This document shows, piece after piece, positions 33,660 to 53,100 of a DNA stretch of 64,000 nt; within the stretch, counting starts at the first letter, position 1; every line of letters starts with the position of its first letter. The notes under the pieces were generated by a model. The model was not told where the DNA came from, searched no databases, and saw only the letters and a program-made list of their open reading frames with translations. The translations under genes were made by a program, and so were the position numbers. This DNA comes from Amyelois transitella (taxonomy: Eukaryota > Arthropoda > Insecta > Lepidoptera > Pyralidae): assembly GCF_032362555.1 (NCBI RefSeq), contig NC_083509.1, positions 9,633,001 to 9,697,000 on the forward strand. The letters are read 5' to 3'.

Positions 33660-36600
33660 CTACGTGGCGCCGTGGGCGAACAAGCCCTCGAGCCCGGCGC
33701 CCTCGGGCGCGTCCACGGCGCTGCGCGGCTTCTCCTTGGCGGGCGGCATCGCCGGCAAGTTCAGGATGAACACTTCTTTCCTGAACAGCTGGCCTACGTT
33801 CCGACCGATCAGCTGGAATATTTCAATAAAGAATAGTTTCAAATTAGATACGTTTTAGAAACAAAATTGAGTGAATAGATTGCCGTATCCGGCCAGTGTC
33901 GCTGTGATGTGAATGACGAATCAAATGATGACTTTAAATGATGATCTGTTTTGATTATGAGATAGATGCTGTATGATGACCCTTTGGGAATAGCCAAAAG
34001 AGCGCATCCCAAGGAAAAAGTTTAGGTTTAAACAATCCAATAACACAAGCAAAATTTTAATTCGAATCGCTAACCAGGCATAACGATCAGCCTGTTATAC
34101 CTTTGGTTTTGGTCGAGCACGAAATAAAGCCCTCGCTACAATACGGACTTAACAATTGTTTTGGATAACTAGTAGGTATAAATCAAAGGTCACTGAACTT
34201 ACAGAGTATAATACAACACATACCTTAGCGGTGATCTTCTTGAAGAGATCTCGCTTGCTCTTGTCAATCTTGCTGGGCTTGCCGGCCTGCGCGCACAGCT
34301 TGTCGTCGAGCCGCTGCAGGTCGTGCTCGTCCACGTCGGGAATCTCGCGGAGCAAGTTGGCCACGCCAGGGAATCGCGGCCGGAGGATCTCATAAGCCTA
34401 GCAAATAAACAGGAATGCTTTAAAACTTGCTGTAAAGTTAGTAGGTAAGCAGGAATAGTGCCTAACTTTTTGGAAACGACGCGTAACGATTGTATGTTAA
34501 AAGCAAATGAGTGCATAAATGGTTGAGTGGTCTGTATCCTGTTCCAAAGTGTAGTCGTTTAAATTTTACCGAGGTCAATTAGTAATGATTATTTTCCGAT
34601 AGTTAAGTTTGATATCTAATTTATAATAAGGGACCCGTCATAGGACATGATCCAATCTGAGTGAGGTTCTCGTGCAAGGTTGTGGAGGTTATAGTATAAA
34701 GGAGTCATCATTTGAAGGGTAAGGTGCGCTACCTGCAGGGCGAGCGCGAGCAGCGCGGCCTGGTTGGCGTCGTGCTGGCCGTGCGTGCGCAGCGCCGCCA
34801 GCGCGGCCGCCAGCGCGCCGCCCGCCTCGCCCGCGCCCACGCGACCGGCCGCCAGCGCGCCGCGCAGCAGCGGCAGCGCCAGCGCGCACGCGCGCAGCGA
34901 CGAGATCGAGTCGTTCCACACCAGCGCGCGGAGAACCTGCGACACGTATAACATTATCTTTCAAATAACCTGTGGGATTACTGCGACATTTATTCGATCA
35001 AATGCGTCGAGCAAGCAAACGCTAAACGGTATGGAATTAATGCCATCGCATTACCACTAGGTAGCGCTGATTAAATCACATACAAATTCGTGTTTACTTA
35101 CTCGTCGTTTAAACGATCAAATGAGTCGAACAAATAAACGTTAATATCAAACAATATGTACACGTTAATGTGTCTTTTCCCACGTCTATATAAGACAGAT
35201 AAACTCTTATATTTACACACACCACCGCTATGGTACGACATTTCTCACTCCGCTTTGTCTGTCCTTCGACATCCCTACTTTTAAGCCTGTGGTCTCATAT
35301 CTTTTTTTAGCTACGTAATGGAGCGATTTTGGTGACGGTGGCGGTATAGTCAGTCATTTATTTAAAAGACAATCTAAAAGATTCCACAAAACAACGCACC
35401 AGCATGTGCAGCTCTTTCTTTCTTCATACATACATAAAATCACGCCTCTTTCCTGGAGGGGTAGGCAGAGACTACCTCTTTCCACTTGCCACGACCTCTT
35501 TATACTTCCTTCGCTTCATCCACATTAAATTTTTTTTCTTGATGTTGTTCGCAATGTCATTGATGTGAAAGCTATCACGGATACGGGAGTTTGCCACGGC
35601 AAGTAGGTTACAATACTGACCGTGTGCAATATGGCGGGCCCAGCAACGGGATTCTGTAGCAAGGCAGCCCCCAACTCGGACACAGTATCGGGCTGCCTCA
35701 CGTTAGGCGGTAGTGGATCTTCTTCCATGCCGGCCTCGTTCGTGTTAGCGAGGCTCTCCGCTATCAACGGGGAGTCCACTAGCGAGATCTGTGCGACAAA
35801 TATATACTTGTTAGTGAAACATTTGACATTATTTTCCCCAAGGTCGCGTTTCCCCTAGGTCCGGGACCTATAACAAGATTATAACAGAATTAAAACTGTA
35901 AGTCACGACACGAGTCTTTGTTTCTTTTTATAATGTGCGCAGATTAACCTGCACTAGCACCTAGGTCAACTGAAAATCAGCTCTATAGCAATATATTCGA
36001 TGAGCTATGACCTTTTTGTATTGCTGCATCTCACATCCTTATTAATTTGTATTTCATATGTACATTGCAAATTGTGTGTAGCAAATCAAATAAATGAATT
36101 ATCTATCTAATATTCTTAAATTCTTTTATAAGATCATTCCATGTGTGTTAAATGAAGTAAAAGAAACTAAATAATCTGGATGTTAAAATAAGTATAGTTG
36201 GTAAGTTACACTGTTACATGGTCAAGTCTGAAACATCGCTCCAACTACAAAACTATTACCGTTAAGTTAGTTTCAAACGGAAGTGAGGTTATTAATGTGA
36301 AAATGTATTTCTTTTAAGCCATTAAATCTTAAGAATTTGACAATTGCTTTATACAATGTTGAGAAGATAGTATAACATTTTATCTAACAATAGACACCAG
36401 GGTTCAGACCGAAATTCAGACAACAAGAATCACCTTCAAAACCTCCAAGTATTCCCTGGTGAGATGCCTCACCATGATGTCCTCCAACACTTCCTGTGAC
36501 TCACTGCCGCCTTCCTCTTCCAGCTTCCCTGACTCATACAGTGATGTGATGTAATCCCAGCGCTGAGATAAATGCATTAGCACTGAAACAAATATATTTT

Positions 36601-39600
36601 ATTATTCTATTTTCTAATTTAAGACAATATTAATGACTTACTTAGTGTCTGAGTTGTAAATCTGATGACATATGAAATGACAAAACAAAATGATAATATT
36701 TCAGCTGTAGTCTGTAACGTTTAAGTATCACATGAATTCGACGTTTGTGTGCAAAGACTCATAATTAATTTTGCTTAGAAAACTATTTTGTAACAGGTGA
36801 AAAGGGTTGGAATTGTGACTTCGGATCACATTATACATTAAATCAAAACTTGTCTTAGTCAAATTGAAGTATCCATCGGTATCTCGACATTTTACTATCA
36901 TACTCACTGCACGGCGCGACGTGTTCGTGCAGTGGCAGTGCCACGTCCGCCCTGTGCGCGGGCGGACAGTGCCCCAGCAGCGGTTTGAGCGCGTTGCGCA
37001 GTATCGGGCGCAGCCAGTGGTCGGGCAGCGCGGGCAGGCCGTGCAGCAGCGAGCCGACGAGGTACTTGGCGAGGCCCGGCGCCGAGTACAGCTCGCGCCC
37101 GAGGTTGGCGGCCGCCGCGCCCACCAGGTGGCACACCTGTAGCCACGACAGATTATATATTATGTAGATCCTACTATGTAATATTATAAATGCGATAGTT
37201 TGTGCCGTGTGGACCTGTAGCAACGACAAATTATATGTTGATCCTACTTATATTATAACTAAATGCGAAAGTTTGTGCCGTGTGGACCTGTAGCAACGAC
37301 AAATTATATGTAGATCCTACTTATATTATAAATGCGAAAGTTTGTGCCGTGTGGACCTGTAGCAACGACAAATTATATATTATGTAGATCCTACTATGTA
37401 ATATTATAAATGCGATAGTTTGTGCCGTGTGGACCTGTAGCAACGACAAATTATATATTATGTAGATCCTACTATGTAATATTATAAATGCGAAAGTTTG
37501 TGCCGTGTGGACCTGTAGCAACGACAAATTATATATTATGTAGATCCTACTATGTAATATTATAAATGCGAAAGTTTGTGCCGTGTGGACCTGTAGCCAC
37601 GACAGATTATATATTATGTAGATCCTACTTATATTATAAATGCGATAGTTTGTGCCGTGTGGACCTGTAGCCACGACAGATTATATATTATGTAGATCCT
37701 ACTTATATTATAAATGCGAAAGTTTGCGCCGTGTGGTTCCCGGCACCAATGCAAAAAAGAATAGGACCACTCCATCCCATTACCATGGATGTCGTAAAAG
37801 GCGACTAAGGAATTGGTTCACAATCTTGGGATTCTTTTTTAGGCGATGGGCTAGCAACCTGTCACTATTTGAATCTCAATTCTATCATGAAGCCAAATAG
37901 CTGAACGTGGCCATTCAGTCTTTTCAAGACTGTTGGCTCTGTCTATATCCCACAAGGGATATAGACGTGACCATATATGCGAAAGTTTGTGAGTACGTCA
38001 GGATGTCAGTATGGAAGTTTGTTACTCTTTCACGCAAAAACTACTGAGCCGATTACGATGAAATTAGGTTTGTAGGTAGCTGAATACCCAGAATAACATA
38101 TAGGCTATTTTTTATCCCGGAGTTCCCGCGGGATGGATTCCACGCGGACGAAGTCACGGGCGACCTCTAGTTGAAAATAAAATTGTTTGTTGAGCGTACC
38201 ACTCAGCTTTGTTGTGCGTAGCGCGACATCTTAGAAGAGCAACGATTAATTAAGGATTGAAATACCATTTTCTGTGTAGCGCACCACTCATCTTCGAAGA
38301 AAATATGCTGTAGGTACAGGCTAACTAAAAATCTGCTCGCATGCGGGTCAATCTAATATGACATACATTCATTATCACATAAAGTGCAATATACACGTTT
38401 TCATGAAGTTTGGACAGCCAAGACTATTTCAACGCTGTTTAAAAATATAAAAGGAACGATTGCTTGATAAAGATTATGTCATAAAATTTACTTACATTAT
38501 CATGTAGCGTATGCAAGAAGTTTTGCATCCGATCCTGTGGCGTAGTCGCTACGGCCGAAATTTCCGGGTCTCTCGGGCCCAATAAGTTCTTTAGTTCTGC
38601 CATCGGCGGGGTCAAAGCTTTGGCGTGGCCGGGGTGTATAAGACCGGCTGCGGAGGGTAAGTGGAGGTCGTGGAGGGATCGACAGAGGGAAAGGGCATGT
38701 GGGAATAGGGGTAGGACGTGGGAGCCGCAAGGGTTCCGCCATATTGGATTCCCGGACGCTGTGACGCCGGCGCTGAAGCCGCCTCTTGACGCTCTGTGAA
38801 TGGAATTGTCATTTGGAATATACTGAGATTAATAGATATATTAATGGATTAATAGATATATTAATGGGGAGCTCTAATTGCTGGGTCCAGAGATTAAAAA
38901 TTTAAAAGAGTTTTCTAATATGGTTTAGGGGATGCACTAAGAAATTTCTCAATAACTGCAGATTAGTAGGATTTTTCGCCTTACGCGGTGTGAGCTGCTA
39001 GCGTACCTCAGTAAGCCGCCCATGCAGTATATATATACAGGGTTATTTTCAATTAACTAGAATCCTTTTAACAGGTGAATCTGTACATCAAACTGAGCAA
39101 CTTTTAGTAAGGGACCAACCACGAAATCACGAATAAAAAAATTCGGTAGCTAATAGACCGTGCTAATAGAATGTTTTATTCTTTTTTAGTCGATGGGCTA
39201 GCAACCTGTCACTATTTTGAATCTCAATTCTATCATTACGCCAAATAACTTAATGTGGCCAATCAGTCTTTTCAATACCGTTGGCTCTGTCTACCCCGCA
39301 AGGGATATAGACGCGATTATATGTATGTATGTAGAAGAGAGACACTGACTTGTCGGGGTCGGAGGGCACCATGGCGCGCTTGACGACGCCCAGCGTGAGC
39401 GTGAGCGCGTGCAGCAGCGTGCGGCGCGAGTCGCCGGCCGCGTCGGGCGCGGGCGCGGGCGCGGGCGCGGCCGCCAGCCCCACCAGCTGCGCCAGCGCCG
39501 CCGCGCTGCCCACGTGCGGCGCCAGCGCGGCCCAGCGCGCGCCGCAGTCGCCCAGCACCTGGCGGCGGACATCGCAAGTTACAACAAGTGAGCCGATAAC

Positions 39601-42600: not shown

Positions 42601-45600
42601 ATCCCATTTATTTCTAGACGCTAAAAGATGCGTTTAGCGGGATAAGAGCAACATCATTTAAAAAAAAGATTTAATGGTACATTTAGTCATAAAAATGGGT
42701 ACACAATGACATTTTGACTAGAAAAAATAAGAAATTGATCCTCACCTAAAACTCTCCAATATTTCCGTGCGACATCTGCTGAAGAACACTGCAAACTCCT
42801 GTTCGCTGTCGTAGTCGATACAGGCGTACGCTACAGCATCATTCACGCCACTCACTCGCGACGACGGGTAAGTCACCTAAAAACATGTTTGCATTTGGTA
42901 AAAAATTAAACCCTAATAAGCACTAACCCAGAAGGGTTGGATTCCTCCATTGCCAGTACCTTATTGCTGGCGGTTTGTCTGCGACCGCACGGAAACAAAA
43001 ACTTACTGGCTGGCTTACTTGTAGAGGGTAGAATAAACAATGATCATTCATAGAAAAACAAAGTTTGTCTCAGCCAATCACAGCGAAGCAAGCTATGCGT
43101 TCAGCCAATAACAGCGAGTATGTTAAAGCTGAGTTTCCCAAGATATTGCTATGTCGGCGGTCGAGCCCGAAATGAAAAGAGTTATAAATGTGGAGGAAAT
43201 GAGAGATGTATGTATGTAAGGACCGTAGCAAGTGAAAATCCAGTTTCTTTTCTACCTTCCTTGCAGGCGTGATGGTATGTATGAGCCCTAAAACATCGCT
43301 CTTGCTACAATTACCTTGAGCAGTTTCGGAGCGGAAGCCTGCAGCCACCTGGGCACGATGGCCAGCAACTGCGGCAGTTTGGATATCTGCTCGTGCTTGA
43401 AGAACGCCAGCCACACGCTGTTTGTAGTGTGCACGATGCATAAAGATGGGTGCTGGCTCAAAAGGAGTAAGGTTTCGAGCAACACCGGCATCCAGGCTTC
43501 CACGTTGGTAGCGTTACTCCATAACGTGGTCAGTTGTTGGCCGAGACCGGCTAAAACCTAAAAAATAATTGAGACTATATATAAAGGTATACACATCGAG
43601 CATAAAATGAAGGTAGATTTTTAACCTTTCTGGTGATTCCTTGTGATGACGTTATTCTATTCCTTTATTTTGCCAACAATGGCAACTCAAAATTTGCTCC
43701 AAAGTTTTGACTGGCACAGAACGCCTTAAGGCATTACATTCGCATATTGTAAATTTTTTAGCACAATCAAGTTTAAATAAATATTGTACAGAAAATTCTC
43801 ATACATATTTTGTTATTTTGGGCATCATTGAAGCCCTCAAGGATGAATAATTTTCCCCTTCTTTTCACATTTTCCATTAATTCTTTGCTCCTTATAGTCG
43901 CAGCGTGATGTTATATAGCCCAAAGCCTTCCTCGATAAATGGGATATTCAACGCAAGAATTTTTTTTCAATTCAAACCAGTAGTTCTTGAGATTAGCGCG
44001 TTCAAACAAACAAACTCTTCAGCTTTATAATATTAGTATAGAAGATAAAAAAACATACCTGCGACAACTTCTTTAGGAACAAATAATGATTCTCATCAAC
44101 CATGCTGATGCTGGCGACAGCTGCACGGTGAATGCACCTGATCGCCTCTTCGCTAAATAATATCATAAGTGGTTTTCGCTCCTTAGTCTGAAATAATGAA
44201 TTATATTAACATTATTATATTTACATACATATGGTCACGGCTATATCCCTTGCGGGGTAGACAGAGCCAACAGTCTTGAAAAGACTGAATGGCCACGTTC
44301 AGCTATTTGGCTTAATGATAGAATTGAGATTCAAATAGTGATAGGTTGCTAGCTCATCGCCTAAAAAAGAATCCCAAGTTTCTAAGCCTACAGAGCCAAT
44401 AGTCTTAAAAAGACTGAATGGCCACGTTTAGCTATTTGGCTTAATGATAGAATTGAGATACAAATAGTGATAGGTTGCTAGCCCATCACCTTAAAAAGAA
44501 TCCCAAGTTTGTAAGCCTATCACTTAGTCGCCTTTTACGACATCCATGGGAAAGAGATTATAGACATTGGAAGACTTGGAGCGAAATAAAACGCGAAGCT
44601 CAAGACCGAGCGGGATGGCGACGCACTGTGGATGCCCTCTGCCCCAGCAAGGGGACATAGGACCTTAAGTCAAGTAAGTCATGGGAAAGAGATGGAATGG
44701 TCCTATTCTTTTTTGTATTGGTGCCGGGAACCACACGGCAACATTATTTATGTTACAATAATTTCACATATTTCATATCAATAATTCAATTAGCAGCGGA
44801 GGGTACAAAATATAAAGATGGAAGAGAATGCTTACAGAGCCCTTCCTATTGACTATTTGCAAGAGACACTCCGCAGCTGAGAGCTGGAACGCGTCGTCTT
44901 GCAGCAGAAAACACAGGATCTCGAGCAGGCGACCATTGTTTGTTACCACGTGGTTGATGGACACCCACTCCACGAAGCCGGTCAATGTCAGCAGTACTAC
45001 CTGCAGGATCACAATGTAAATACAGATTATAGAAGTAAGTTTTTGTTTATGTTATAACTTATTTAAACATCATTTAACCTAATAAGCATGCTGAAATTTT
45101 GGTATAAAATTTTTTTGTTGGTTTAAAACTCGTGGCATCGCCGTTTCCTATCAAAATTCGATTGCAATTTTAAACTTTAATGCCAAATGCTAATTAACGT
45201 TGGAGAACCACATATTATGATGAACAAACATACATACATATAATCACGTCTATATCCCTTGCGGGGTAGACAAAGCCAACAGTCTTGTGAAGACTGATAG
45301 GCCACGTTCAGATATTTGGCATTACGATAGAATTGAAATTCAAATAGTGACAGGTTGCTAGCCCATCGCCTAAAAGAAGAATCCTAAGTATATAAGCCTA
45401 CCCCTTAGTCGCCTTTTCCGACATCCATGGGCAAGAGATGGAGTGGTCCTATTCTTTTTTCTATTGGTGCCGGGAACCACTCGGCAAGATGATTATTATG
45501 ATGAAACATACCATTTTATAAATCTCACTCAATAAAGTTTCAATTACCAAATTTTATTCTATTGATTTAATGAAAAAAAAAAAAAAGAATTTCACTCACT

Positions 45601-48600
45601 TGTACAACCCGTCCATTGCTGGCCGCCGCCGCGTAGTCCCCGGCCGCGGTCTTCTCCCTAAACTCCTGAACGTGGAGTTCAATGAGACGCATGAAAAACG
45701 CGAAGATTTCAGACATGTTGCTAGTGAGCGCTTGGTAGATGTCCTTCCTTCGCTGGTTCTGCTCTAACGTCTGTGAAAGACACAATAATTTAAAATACAT
45801 TCATATATATAATATATATATATAACCGTTTTATATTAACCCGTAAGGGATTAAAATGTTATATATATATATATACATATATATATATCCCTTACGGTTT
45901 AGACAGAGCCAAGTCTTAAAAAGACTAAAAGGTCATGTTCAGCTCCGTAAATACATACATATGGTCACGTCTATATCCCTTGCGGGGTAGACAGAGCCAA
46001 CAGTCTTTAAAAGACTGAATGGCCACGTTCAGCTATTTGGCTTAATGATAGAATTGAGATTCAAATAGTGACAGGTTGCTAGCCCATCGCCTAAAAAAGA
46101 ATCCCAAGTTTGTAAGCCTATTCCTTAGTCGCCTTTTACGACATCCATGGGAAAGAGATGGAGTGGTCCTATTCTTTTTTTGTATTGGTGCCGGGAACTA
46201 CACGGCACAAAATCTTTATTCATTATTATAGGATAATATCATATTGCTTAATAATTGTCAAATCTTTTGGTTTCACAACATTGGTTGATGGTTGGTGATA
46301 GATTGAGTTACAAATAGTGACAGGTTGTTGATCACAGGTTGTTGACCATCTTCACAGGTTGTAATGGTCAACAGTCCAACAGTAAAGTGTGTCAATCTCA
46401 ATACATTATTCAGAAATTCTGTACAACCATCTTAATAACACACTGACACAGATGTTTGCTGTTCTACTTTTCATATTTATTGAATGAGCACATTTTAGAA
46501 TATCTATAAAATACATAAAGAAAACATGTTTTACAAGCTTTTGCCTGCTAACTCATCGGCATGGTTTCTTTATTGCAACAGAAAGAAGGTTCTGTATTGT
46601 TGGTTATTGTTTGGTGCCAAGATCAACAACCAACACACCAACATCAGAATTGGTTCAATGGTTTAATAAAAACGTAACATACATAGACAGAGTTACTATT
46701 GCATTTATAATATAAAGAAGGTTTATAATATAAAGGAATATTCTAATTTCATCCTGGCTGGTTGCATTTTCACCACTCCGGAAGAGCCAGGTCGCGGCGC
46801 CCCTTTTGATCCTGGACTGGGCAATCCAGGTTTTTACCTTTGCAGGGGAACCTAAACCATATTGGATCAGGCTAAAAGCTGGAATAGATGAACATGCCTA
46901 TTGCCTTAGTTGCCTTTAACAACATCTTTTATGTACTCTCAAGTGCTAGGTACCAAGGGGCAATAATTTTAATTATGTTAAATCACGTCTATATCCCCCT
47001 ATGGGGCAGACAGAGCGAACAGTAATCAAAAGACTGAAGGCCACATTAAAAAGTACAGATTCAATTTGTAAATCTTTACATGATGAAAAGATCATAGTTT
47101 TATCATATGTTTACCAATTCAGTTATGCGAATATTTCAAGGTCAAATTAATAGAAAAGCGTGAATGACGAATTTACAGCATCTCCTTATCAATGCACTTG
47201 CAACTCAATATGTTGAGTTGAGACTACTAGATTTTAATTGTATAAATAATTAGTGAATCAAGTTATTAAGATTCTGTTAACTATTGAGTTTATTGAAAAA
47301 CTGTCGTTATCTAACAGAAAATTGTAGTTTTTCAATTTCCTTTCAATTTCAAAAGCCTTTATTGCTGACTTACAGATTTACACAACAATACAATTACACA
47401 TATACAACTGTTTTAATAAAAACACATCAGCCTCCATCAGCATGTCCTTTAGACACAAAGACCTCCTCCAGATCTCTCCACTTTTTCTGGTCCCTTGTGA
47501 GCCTCACCCAAAAGGCACCTGTGTTGAAAATTGTAATTATGGCATATTAAAACTATTTCTGATCATACCTGTAGAGTAGCAACATCCTCAACCAATCGCA
47601 AGAATACATGCAACACAATCTGTGTGTGAGGGTGTCCCCTGGCACAAGCATCACTTAATTCCCCAAGCAATGTCGGCCACTGCTGGGGCCATTCCCGCTT
47701 TATCATCTCCACGATGACGCGCGCCAGAGCATCGTTCAGGTGCCCAATCTCCCAGCCACCCAAGTATAAAAGCTTCATAGCATTTTCCTAGAACAAAATC
47801 GAAATCCAAAATAAAATCAATAAGGCAAATATGTGAGCATGCTAGTATATTTAATAAATACATATATATAATATATATAAATAATAAAATATAACATCTA
47901 TACTGCAGCATAATATTTATACTACAGAAAGCCCACAGCTTAACAGGTGTAAAACGAAAAGACCTTTCTTAGTGGACGTCTTCTAGTTACAATCTACCTT
48001 CCTAACAAATTTCATCTTTATTGCCTTATGTTATTTTGTGATCAGAGAGTTTTTCAAAAACCAGATCATGAACAATGTAAATATGATATATTTATAAATA
48101 TAATTAGATGAGAAATAGATTTAGATGAATAATTTATTATTTTTAATAACTGATAAAAGAAAAATATTTGACAATTCTATTTTCATATTAACATTGTTCT
48201 GGTTCTGGTGTATATTTAGCTAGGAACATGATTTCACTGACATTTGCATGAAAACGAAAATCTTTCTATTAAAATGATAGGTGCCAGAAATAATTGGATG
48301 AAGAGCAGAATATCGTAGCACAGGTAAAGATAGAAAAATACAAATTTTATAAAGCAACCCATTCCTATTTTATTCAAAATATTAAAATACAATTAGGTTT
48401 AATTTGGCAATGAACACTGATAAATTAGTTTATTGTTTTTTATACCTTGATAAATATTTTTTCTGCTTGTGTAATCTGAGGCCATTTGTACTTGACTGTG
48501 TTCTCCATGAGCTGCAGGCCAAAATGTTTTACAACAGCAGAGTACTGGTTGCCGCTAGCTAGGAGCAGGCCTGCTTGAGCACACCATGGTGAGTTTTCTT

Positions 48601-50197: not shown

Positions 50198-53100
50198 ATG
50201 GACGATAAAAGTACACTCTTGGAGCCTTCCTTAGAAAAGCAGCTCAAAGGCCATCGGAATGGAATCACGGCATTGTTTTATAGTCCTAACGAACAACAAA
50301 TTGCTTCTAGTTCTTTGGATAATACTGTTTTAGTAAGCATTTATTTACCGCCTGTAAATATGACATACATTCTTATGGTTAAGTTAGAATATAAGCTAAT
50401 CATTTTTTTGTTATAGTTATGGGATCCTCGAGGTACAATGAGAAGCTATAGATTTCAAGGTCACGAAGAAGCCGTCATGGACGTAACATTCTCCCCATCT
50501 GGAAAATATATGGCAACTGCTTCTAGGGATAAAACTGTTAGGGTTTGGGTTCCTACAGTCACTGGAAGCACAGGCATGTTCAAAGCTCATTCACAGACTG
50601 TGCGATCTGTCCAGTTTAGTCCTGATGGATCTAAAGTATGTTTTGTTTTATTTGAAATTGTAACATTATGGCACACAAACTTTATGGTCCCATTGAAAAT
50701 TGCAGATAATCACAGCATCAGATGATAAAATTGTGAAAATGTGGTCTAGTAGCAACCACAAGTTTATATCTTCATTTGTTGGACACACCAACTGGGTGAG
50801 GAGTGCCCGCATGTCCAGTGATGGGTCAGTGATAGCATCCTGTTCTGATGATAAGACTGCCAAGCTGTGGAATCCAAACTCAGGAGAATGTATCCATACA
50901 TACAAAGAACAGAAAGGTCATGGTTTGTGCTTAGCGTGGCACCCCTCTGGTTGCTATATAGCTGTTGGCACATCTAATGGAAATGTCAAGCTCTATGACA
51001 CTAGAACACACACTTTAGTACAGTATTACAGGTAATGGTATTGTTGCTTTAACTTCATTTTATATTAAAATTAAATACCGACCTATGTACTGTTAACATA
51101 TCTATTTAGGTACATACTATATCAGTTGATGTAAATGGCTTTGTTTTAATTCCAGTATTCATAATGATGCAGTGACACAAGTGGCTTTTCATCCCAGTGG
51201 CAGTTATGTATTGACTGCAAGCAGAGATGGCAAAATGAAGGTTTTTAAATAACTATTTACAGTAATAGATGATTTTATCTTAATAATTTTGCCTCATGAG
51301 GCAGACAGCTGATAATTAACTAAACATTATACTATTTTACTATATCTAATTCACATCCTTTCATACATACATATAATCATGACAATATTCCTAGTGGGGT
51401 TAAATATAGACAGAGCCAGCAGGCTTGAACAGACTGAAAAGCCATATTCAACCTTATGGCTTAATGCCAGAATTGAGATTCAAAGTGACAGGTTGCTAGC
51501 CCACTGCCTACAAGAAGAATCCCAAGTTTAAAAGACATACATACATACATACATATGATCACGTCTATATCCCTTGCGGGGTAGACAGAGCCAACAGTCT
51601 TGAAAAGACTGAATGGCCACGTTCAGCTATTTGGCTTAATGATAGAACCGAGATTCAAATAGTGACAGGTTGCTAGCCCATCGCCTAAAAGAGGAATCCT
51701 AAGTTTATAAGCCTATCCCTTAGTCGCCTTTTACGACATCCATGGGAAAGAGATGGAGTGGTCCTATTCTTTTTTGTAATAGTGCCGGGAACCACACGGC
51801 ACGTTTAAAAGACATCCATGGGAAGATATGGAGTGGTTCTATTCTAAATCATCCTTTTCATGTAGAATACTGATAGCTTTAAACACATTTCCGCATATCC
51901 AAAAGAACTTTTTTTAAACAGATATTGGACCTACTTGAAGGGCATCCACTATTCACGCTAAGTGGACACAGTGGTGCTGTAAATGCAGTCACCTTTTCAC
52001 CCAGTGGTGATGCTTTTGCATCAGCCGGTGATGATAAACTGGTAAGTAGTCATATTATTTATATGAAACAACAAAGAAGTAAATGGTTAAAGAAAATGCA
52101 ACAAACTTGAGAGCAAATTCTGTGAAGGATGCAAATTTTGAAAGACATTTTTAATATAAGTGCTCACTCTTAACAACAGACACCAGCAAAAGTAAAAAGT
52201 CAATATCTATATACTTTGCAGTTTTTTTGCACTGTCTTCCCTGTAAGTGATATTAAAGAAAAATTATGTATTGACTCAAATATAAAATATATTTTTTCAG
52301 GTATTTTTGTGGAAAACCAATTTTACAGAGCTCAGTGATATTAAAGAGAATGTTCCACATAATCCTTCCATGCCCAGATCTACTTCTCAAACTTCCAAGG
52401 CCACATCCACCTCCAAGGGGCGACACCAGGTGGTCAAAAAAAGATAGTGTTGTTAGCTAACAATGTAATTTAGATGTAGTTTTAATTGGTTTTTGTAATT
52501 ATAATTAGATGTAAGTATAGTATTTAAAAAGTAAATTTGACATACATACATTATATTAATTATACAACTACAGATTTTTGCTTTTTCTCCCATTCAGGAA
52601 TGGTCATTGACACAGGTTGCAACAAAATATTCAATAGCTTTCCAAAAGCTTGAATTCAGAGAAAGTTGTAATATGAACCTGATGCTCAAACGTTCTTCTT
52701 CATATTAGGGTATTTATTAAAAGAATTAATGCTATTAATTATCAAATCAGGATGTAAGAGCCTGGTATCTGTGCTATCACAGCTCCAAATATCCAGTAAC
52801 TACATTTGTCTACTTGGATGACATAGCTGATACTGGGAGTTTTCAAGAACCAGCAGCCAATAGTACTGTCATCAGTCACAAGTCTGATGAACAGATTGGC
52901 TTTAATAAGTCCTCACCAAGGGTTGATTTGTCATCTGTTTCTGAACATGAGTCTGGACAAAGCTCCTACAGTGTGGGTCATATCAGTCACATCCCTCGCC
53001 CCCCGCCCAGTCGAACCACATACACCATACCCTCGATCATAGATAAATCTATTGGCACTGACACAGTCATACAGAAAGAAGAGGAAGATTTATTTGGAAT

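Follow-up and report, generated by a model that had tools for sequence, protein, structure and literature searches.

The XPO5 locus

The window (i.e., the whole 64,000-nucleotide stretch of the Amyelois transitella genome that was analyzed) carries on its minus strand exons of a gene that the initial annotation assigned to exportin-5 (XPO5), together with a minisatellite that abuts one of them. The exons flanking the minisatellite match Pfam PF19273 (E = 1.2e-29; 103.3 bits; cut-off, 27) and human exportin-5 (3a6p chain A; E = 4.8e-36), as found with a query that contained a single incorrect residue and began with some intron-encoded residues; both matches support the assignment. Exon 14 (298 nt; 38496 to 38793, minus strand) ends in phase 0, as had been proposed, with the donor AAT|GTAAGT and a frame that continues into GTG TGC CAC at the beginning of exon 15 (229 nt; 36908 to 37136, minus strand; numbered as in the initial annotation), which itself ends at the donor GCA|GTGAGT. 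Exon 16 starts at 36582 on the same strand, and the reading frame of exons 14 to 17 is intact. At the exon 14/15 joint the protein aligns with human exportin-5 without a gap (TLHDN-VCHLVG and TLYEN-CFHILG, respectively, in the 3a6p alignment), which establishes 37136 as the native acceptor. Exons 14 to 16, with this joint corrected, were searched against the genome (i.e., the 327-Mb assembly of 33 contigs); they matched only the gene's own three exons at the XPO5 locus, and no second XPO5 copy or retrocopy that would record splicing was found. Intron 14 (1359 nt; 37137 to 38495, minus strand) holds the minisatellite and two interspersed repeats (i.e., the Helitron-like repeat A and the SINE-like repeat B).

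A tandem array of acceptors abutting exon 15

Tandem Repeats Finder reported one array at 37135 to 37736 (period, 78; 8.0 copies; 92% matches; score, 928). Cutting it after each CTACAG gave eight units (37137 to 37736, minus strand), which measure, from first to last along the transcript, 72, 74, 78, 78, 78, 69, 73, and 78 nt; the eighth abuts exon 15. The eight units beside the exon are those first described, but the array starts at 37736, with a first unit (72 nt) that lacks the leading GT. Units 2 to 8 each start with GT and end with CTACAG. Units 3 and 4 are identical 78-nt copies (37435 to 37590, minus strand), a sign of recent exchange or slippage.

The array adds seven acceptors to the native one, as had been claimed from the repeated CTACAG. 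They lie at 37214, 37287, 37356, 37434, 37512, 37590, and 37664 on the minus strand; five have the sequence GTTGCTACAG|GTCCACACGG, the other two have GTGGCTACAG|GTCCACACGG, and the native acceptor of exon 15 reads GTGGCTACAG|GTGTGCC. AGGT stands at every unit joint, and the ten occurrences of this tetranucleotide in intron 14 plus two exon bases include the seven in the array and the native one. The string CTACAGGT is invariant across all seven joints, in an array that holds too few changes for this constancy to inform on selection. Tandem arrays may be assembled wrongly and the copy number comes from a single assembly, but the units are told apart by point changes and indels and the flanks run cleanly into exon 15 and repeat B, so that an assembly artefact is extremely unlikely.

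Nested transposable elements in intron 14

Repeat A (37697 to 38170) lies on the plus strand, antisense to XPO5; it starts at A|TCCTACT (37697, in unit 1), ends at CTAG|T (38170), and is split by repeat B. The end that lies in the array (CAAACTTTCGCATTTATAATATTAGTAGGAT when read in transcript sense) has 2243 genome-wide occurrences at up to one mismatch. Among the matches listed, the sequence past GTAGGAT varies between copies, and the copy closest to the array (L002) is alike for 18 bases past this point. The core is preceded by ATCCTACTA or ATCCTACTT in 52 of 68 start copies. For the other end, 61 loci were searched, 56 of which gave a match and 39 an alignment that reaches the end; CTAG was present in 33 and CTAGT in 32 of these 39. 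Helitrons have been described as having TC and CTRR ends and inserting between A and T (excerpts of PMC3789558, PMC4038834, and PMC4344730), and the copy in intron 14 has a 5'-TC, a 3'-CTRR, and flanking A and T. When its flanks are joined, an ordinary intron end results (...TTTTCAA|TCTACATAATATATAATCTGTCGTGGCTACAG). The segment of repeat A examined for the hairpin expected near a Helitron 3' end (38125 to 38166) has a predicted fold of -8.1 kcal/mol (z = -0.81), which 37 of 200 shuffles equalled. The lepidopteran Hel-2 Helitrons, as described in PMC4344730, end in TCC and CTAG and have a consensus of 250 bp; repeat A resembles them in its 5'-TCC, 3'-CTAG, flanking A and T, and similar size, a likeness by description rather than by consensus alignment, and differs in that the copy here is split by repeat B and has its start multiplied.

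Repeat B (249 nt; 37728 to 37976, plus strand, antisense to XPO5) lies within the Helitron start, with its own-sense head GCCGTGTGG at 37728. It is flanked on both sides by the 13-nt CAAACTTTCGCAT (transcript sense), which represents a target-site duplication, as expected of an insertion. Past its ACGGC end the sequence varies between copies among the matches listed, and the longer alignments of the whole intron stop at the last base of this end or within 5 nt of it. An ATGTATG-type tail (own sense) is present in all eight other copies listed and missing in the copy here. From this tail and the own-sense head, we regard repeat B as a SINE-like element that lies antisense with its head bordering the array; of the features of a SINE, the repeat-type 3' tail is seen in the other copies and the target-site duplication in this one. 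Lepidopteran SINEs have been described, including one with an (ATGT)n tail (PMC8010984). A search of 36900 to 38500 gave no Rfam match up to E = 1. Elsewhere in the window, repeat B accounts for further matches (16 BLAST rows including its own, e.g., 45959 to 46206, 51553 to 51800, and 13579 to 13331). Several of these copies encode a similar peptide on one strand, perhaps by chance, and one copy contains a 129-bp two-copy tandem duplication (44261 to 44519).

Composition and origin of the repeat unit

In transcript sense, a unit consists of CCACACGGC (the head of repeat B), one base, CAAACTTTCGCAT, 17 nt of the Helitron start, the 32 nt of native intron that lead to CTACAG, and GT. The host part corresponds to the native end of intron 14 (37137 to 37168, minus strand), immediately to the left of exon 15, and the closing GT equals the first two bases of this exon. 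The proposed composition of the unit (i.e., the splice flank of the host gene, the start of a Helitron, and the head of a SINE-like repeat) is thus borne out by the ends of repeats A and B. We also considered that both repeat ends in the unit might be 3' tails, and rejected this on the antisense orientation of the two repeats.

The fusion of the ends of repeats A and B, searched as an exact degenerate pattern, has eight matches in 327 Mb, all of them in the array, and the intron end with the exon start matches the XPO5 locus only (E up to 0.001). A composite transposon that carries the whole unit was rejected on these grounds, since the fused junction, as an exact pattern, and the intron-end/exon-start sequence are found at this locus alone. 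Nor do the data support a general tendency of repeat A to form tandem arrays: against its 2243 start occurrences, pairs of the exact 17-nt core number five at a spacing of 50 to 80 nt and three at 19 to 49 nt, one of these eight being the XPO5 array, and these counts are lower bounds because matching was exact. Among 61 independent non-XPO5 loci (185.5 kb; taken from 91 after XPO5 copies and duplicates were dropped, and non-random in that they were mostly chosen for repeat-A ends), there was no array with a period of at least 30 and more than 3.9 copies. At five of the loci (L083, L084, L085, L086, and L088), the repeat-A ends lie within two-copy tandem duplications of 41 to 83 bp, perhaps early stages of the process that produced the XPO5 array.

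At XPO5, a complete acceptor has been multiplied in tandem by a local minisatellite born of nested transposon insertions. The Helitron-like element lies in antisense orientation, separated from exon 15 by 32 nt, and repeat B inserted into the Helitron start, which generated the 13-nt target-site duplication. A stretch of roughly 74 nt (i.e., 9 nt of the B head, the duplicate, the Helitron start, the 32-nt intron end, and the first two bases of exon 15) subsequently became tandem and now stands at eight copies.

Strength of the array acceptors

We scored the acceptors with two weight matrices, one of 14 sites (i.e., the XPO5 acceptors of the window without the native exon 15 acceptor) and one of 23 sites (i.e., the same set plus nine acceptors of the neighboring plus-strand gene, which we take to encode a leucyl-tRNA synthetase from its reading frames). 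The splice-site models, including the donor model used below, rest on 14 to 26 sites that were hand-picked in two window genes by open frame, phase, and motif, and are therefore biased to motif-like sites. With the 14-site matrix, the seven array acceptors and the native one were the top eight of the 63 AGs in intron 14; the native site scored 7.76, two array sites 7.67, and five array sites 9.14 to 9.63. With the 23-site matrix, the same five array sites scored 8.91 (16 of 23 real acceptors lower) and were the top five of 63, while the native site and the other two array sites scored 4.89 (7 of 23 real acceptors lower). Four AGs outside the array (38164, 38166, 38434, and 38291) also outscored the native acceptor in the 23-site model, which indicates that this model discriminates sites poorly. 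The common array acceptor exceeded the native one in both models, a difference that traces to two substitutions (C to T and G to T) within the pyrimidine stretch.

Each array copy brings its own AG-free zone of 27 to 32 nt and GCTACAG. These zones contain candidate branch points of the TNA type at -17 and, in most cases, at -24 or -25; the YTNAY motif was absent from the AG-free zones of the acceptors. By motif, the array acceptors are plausible splice sites.

These scores bear on the possibility that the array is a silent passenger, with exon 15 and its donor defining the exon such that the native acceptor alone is used and the mRNA is unaffected. Exon definition is likely in an intron of 1359 nt. 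The intact frame of exons 14 to 17 is in keeping with this possibility, as is the finding of no second XPO5 copy in the genome, and the array copies contain just 2 nt of exon, so that no exonic enhancers were carried along. Against it, five array acceptors lie about 4 bits above the native site at distances of 78 to 376 nt from it. We consider an unaffected mRNA a serious alternative, although on balance an unlikely one.

Donor potential of the unit joints

Dual use of the AG|GT joints, by which units would leave as micro-introns of 69 to 78 nt or by stepwise recursive splicing, is suggested by the GT...AG structure of all of units 2 to 8. There is also a precedent: Duan et al. (2024) reported tandem arrays of dual-specific AGGT splice sites in UBC and VCX3A, where weak motifs are usable according to the excerpt consulted (PMC10809524). 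The XPO5 array shares with these the AG|GT at each repeat joint and a unit that resembles a GT-AG intron; it differs from what that excerpt describes in that its units consist of intron and transposon sequence, its donor half is very weak, and its sites are candidates by motif. As a donor, the array joint CAG|GTCCAC scored -0.79 (only 1 of 26 real donors lower), and the joint formed after joining to exon 14, AAT|GTCCAC, scored -4.65 (none of 26 lower). Recursive splice sites have been described (PMC6110457 and PMC8605326, in part), and a strong donor regenerated by joining to the upstream exon, which is expected of such sites, is not provided by the array joints; in flies, recursive splicing is reportedly confined to very long introns (PMC6110457, same excerpt). 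The poor donor scores of the AG|GT joints make micro-intron or recursive removal improbable, and we give this reading very little weight. To judge from these scores, the array resembles a ladder of acceptors rather than a set of sites for dual or recursive splicing.

The native exon 15 border (CAG|GTGTGC), by comparison, had a donor score of 8.49, which exceeds that of 17 of 26 real donors. Because this border is donor-like, it is conceivable that unit 8 could form a 78-nt cassette exon ending at this border (37136, minus strand), with a strong array acceptor upstream and a shifted frame once joined to exon 16.

Predicted effects on message and protein

The seven extra acceptors would extend exon 15 by 78, 151, 220, 298, 376, 454, and 528 nt, respectively. 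Only the nearest (37214) leaves the frame open: if the acceptor just upstream of 37214 were used, unit 8 (37137 to 37214, minus strand; VHTAQTIAFIILHSRIYIIYNLSWLQ) would be read through 26 codons into exon 15, in agreement with the 26-residue extension originally predicted. The prediction that the next acceptor (37287, before the 73-nt unit 7 at 37215 to 37287, minus strand) shifts the frame likewise holds, with a stop after 18 codons in the 151-nt extension. This extension and four others (220, 298, 376, and 454 nt) are off by one and run into stops after 11 to 89 codons, and the 528-nt extension keeps the frame length and meets a stop after 11 codons. All six premature stops lie 323 to 721 nt before the exon 15/16 joint, a position at which nonsense-mediated decay is expected.

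On a reading that follows the initial annotation, the -78 acceptor would be the source of a real alternative XPO5 isoform with 26 additional residues, and array length would tune the balance. The 26 open codons of this acceptor and its score (8.91; native site, 4.89) speak for such an isoform. The insert, however, would part residues that align gap-free with human XPO5, and structure models suggest that it would probably fall inside a helix. In these models, which were computed without alignments and are of low confidence (mean pLDDT of 55.3 and 53.5, with 39 to 42 for the four further models of exon 14), the end of exon 14 is a predicted helix (residues 85 to 98 of 99; block pLDDT, 73 to 76), and exon 15 has a predicted helix that starts at residue 3 (pLDDT there, 38). 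A helix continuous across the exon 14/15 joint is likely. The stops that follow the other six acceptors also weigh against this isoform, the open 78-nt frame is explicable without selection, and the -78 site is independent of array length, contrary to the supposed tuning. We therefore judge a functional isoform of this kind to be improbable.

A probable tolerated splicing burden

We favor the explanation that the array, a local minisatellite with seven decoy acceptors beside the native one, burdens splicing to a degree that is tolerated and does not act as a regulated switch; this is the most likely reading, held with moderate confidence. The native acceptor at 37136, which adjoins the coding exon, would still take most of the splicing from exon 14, with some leakage to the array. 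Leaked splicing to six of the seven decoys would meet a premature stop and yield mostly nonsense mRNA, to be removed by nonsense-mediated decay, while leakage to the -78 site would add 26 residues and likely give a weak or inactive protein. The length of the array may set the size of the burden. The native acceptor probably dominates over the candidate array sites; against this, five decoys outscore it, so that it could be non-dominant.

The same ladder, several decoys of which outscore the native acceptor and which would be free to vary in unit number, could instead act as a length-dependent dimmer, in which each added unit diverts more XPO5 pre-mRNA to nonsense transcripts and the +26 isoform is a by-product. 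We regard such a dimmer as unlikely; if it were true, repeat length would determine the dose of the pre-miRNA exporter.

Relation to known splice-site repeats

Minisatellites that copy splice sites have precedents. Turri et al. (1995), as cited in parts of PMC2915984 and PMC4526556, described a minisatellite that supplies multiple splice donors to the interferon-induced transcript IFI6 (6-16). In XPO5, too, a minisatellite repeats a splice site of its own host gene, with tandem units that each carry splice-site sequence at an exon border; the differences are that IFI6 repeats donors, the use of which in mRNA is stated in these sources, whereas XPO5 repeats candidate acceptors. The AGGT duplication model of intron gain, summarized in PMC4974935 (excerpt), likewise involves a tandem duplication that puts GT and AG at the two ends of a segment. 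The model copies exon sequence, whereas the XPO5 piece is intronic apart from two exon bases, so that no new intron is necessary. In human genes, internal tandem repeats (minisatellites) that sit where exon meets intron have been reported to bring about alternative splicing by way of new introns (PMC2812944, in part); that work concerns paralogs with transcripts, as far as the excerpt goes, whereas XPO5 is one insect gene read from its genome. Among the open-licence papers listed by our searches, none dealt with a minisatellite that repeats splice acceptors. By analogy, the XPO5 array would join the group of splice-site-repeating minisatellites as a member that repeats acceptors and is assembled from the ends of transposons.

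The array offers a natural experiment in 3' splice site choice, with eight near-identical acceptors, 69 to 78 nt apart and in similar upstream contexts, that differ chiefly by their distance to the exon and by two bases of the pyrimidine stretch. It also illustrates how a repeat that duplicates a splice site can arise from nested insertions of transposons next to an exon. If array length varies and leakage is real, the array would tie repeat length in an insect to miRNA pathway dosage.

A separate cluster of AGs occurs elsewhere in XPO5, where three in-phase AGs lie within 12 nt at one exon start (TTTAG GTCCAG GAGTAG; 41006 to 40994, minus strand); judged from its sequence, this may be a tandem acceptor of the usual type.
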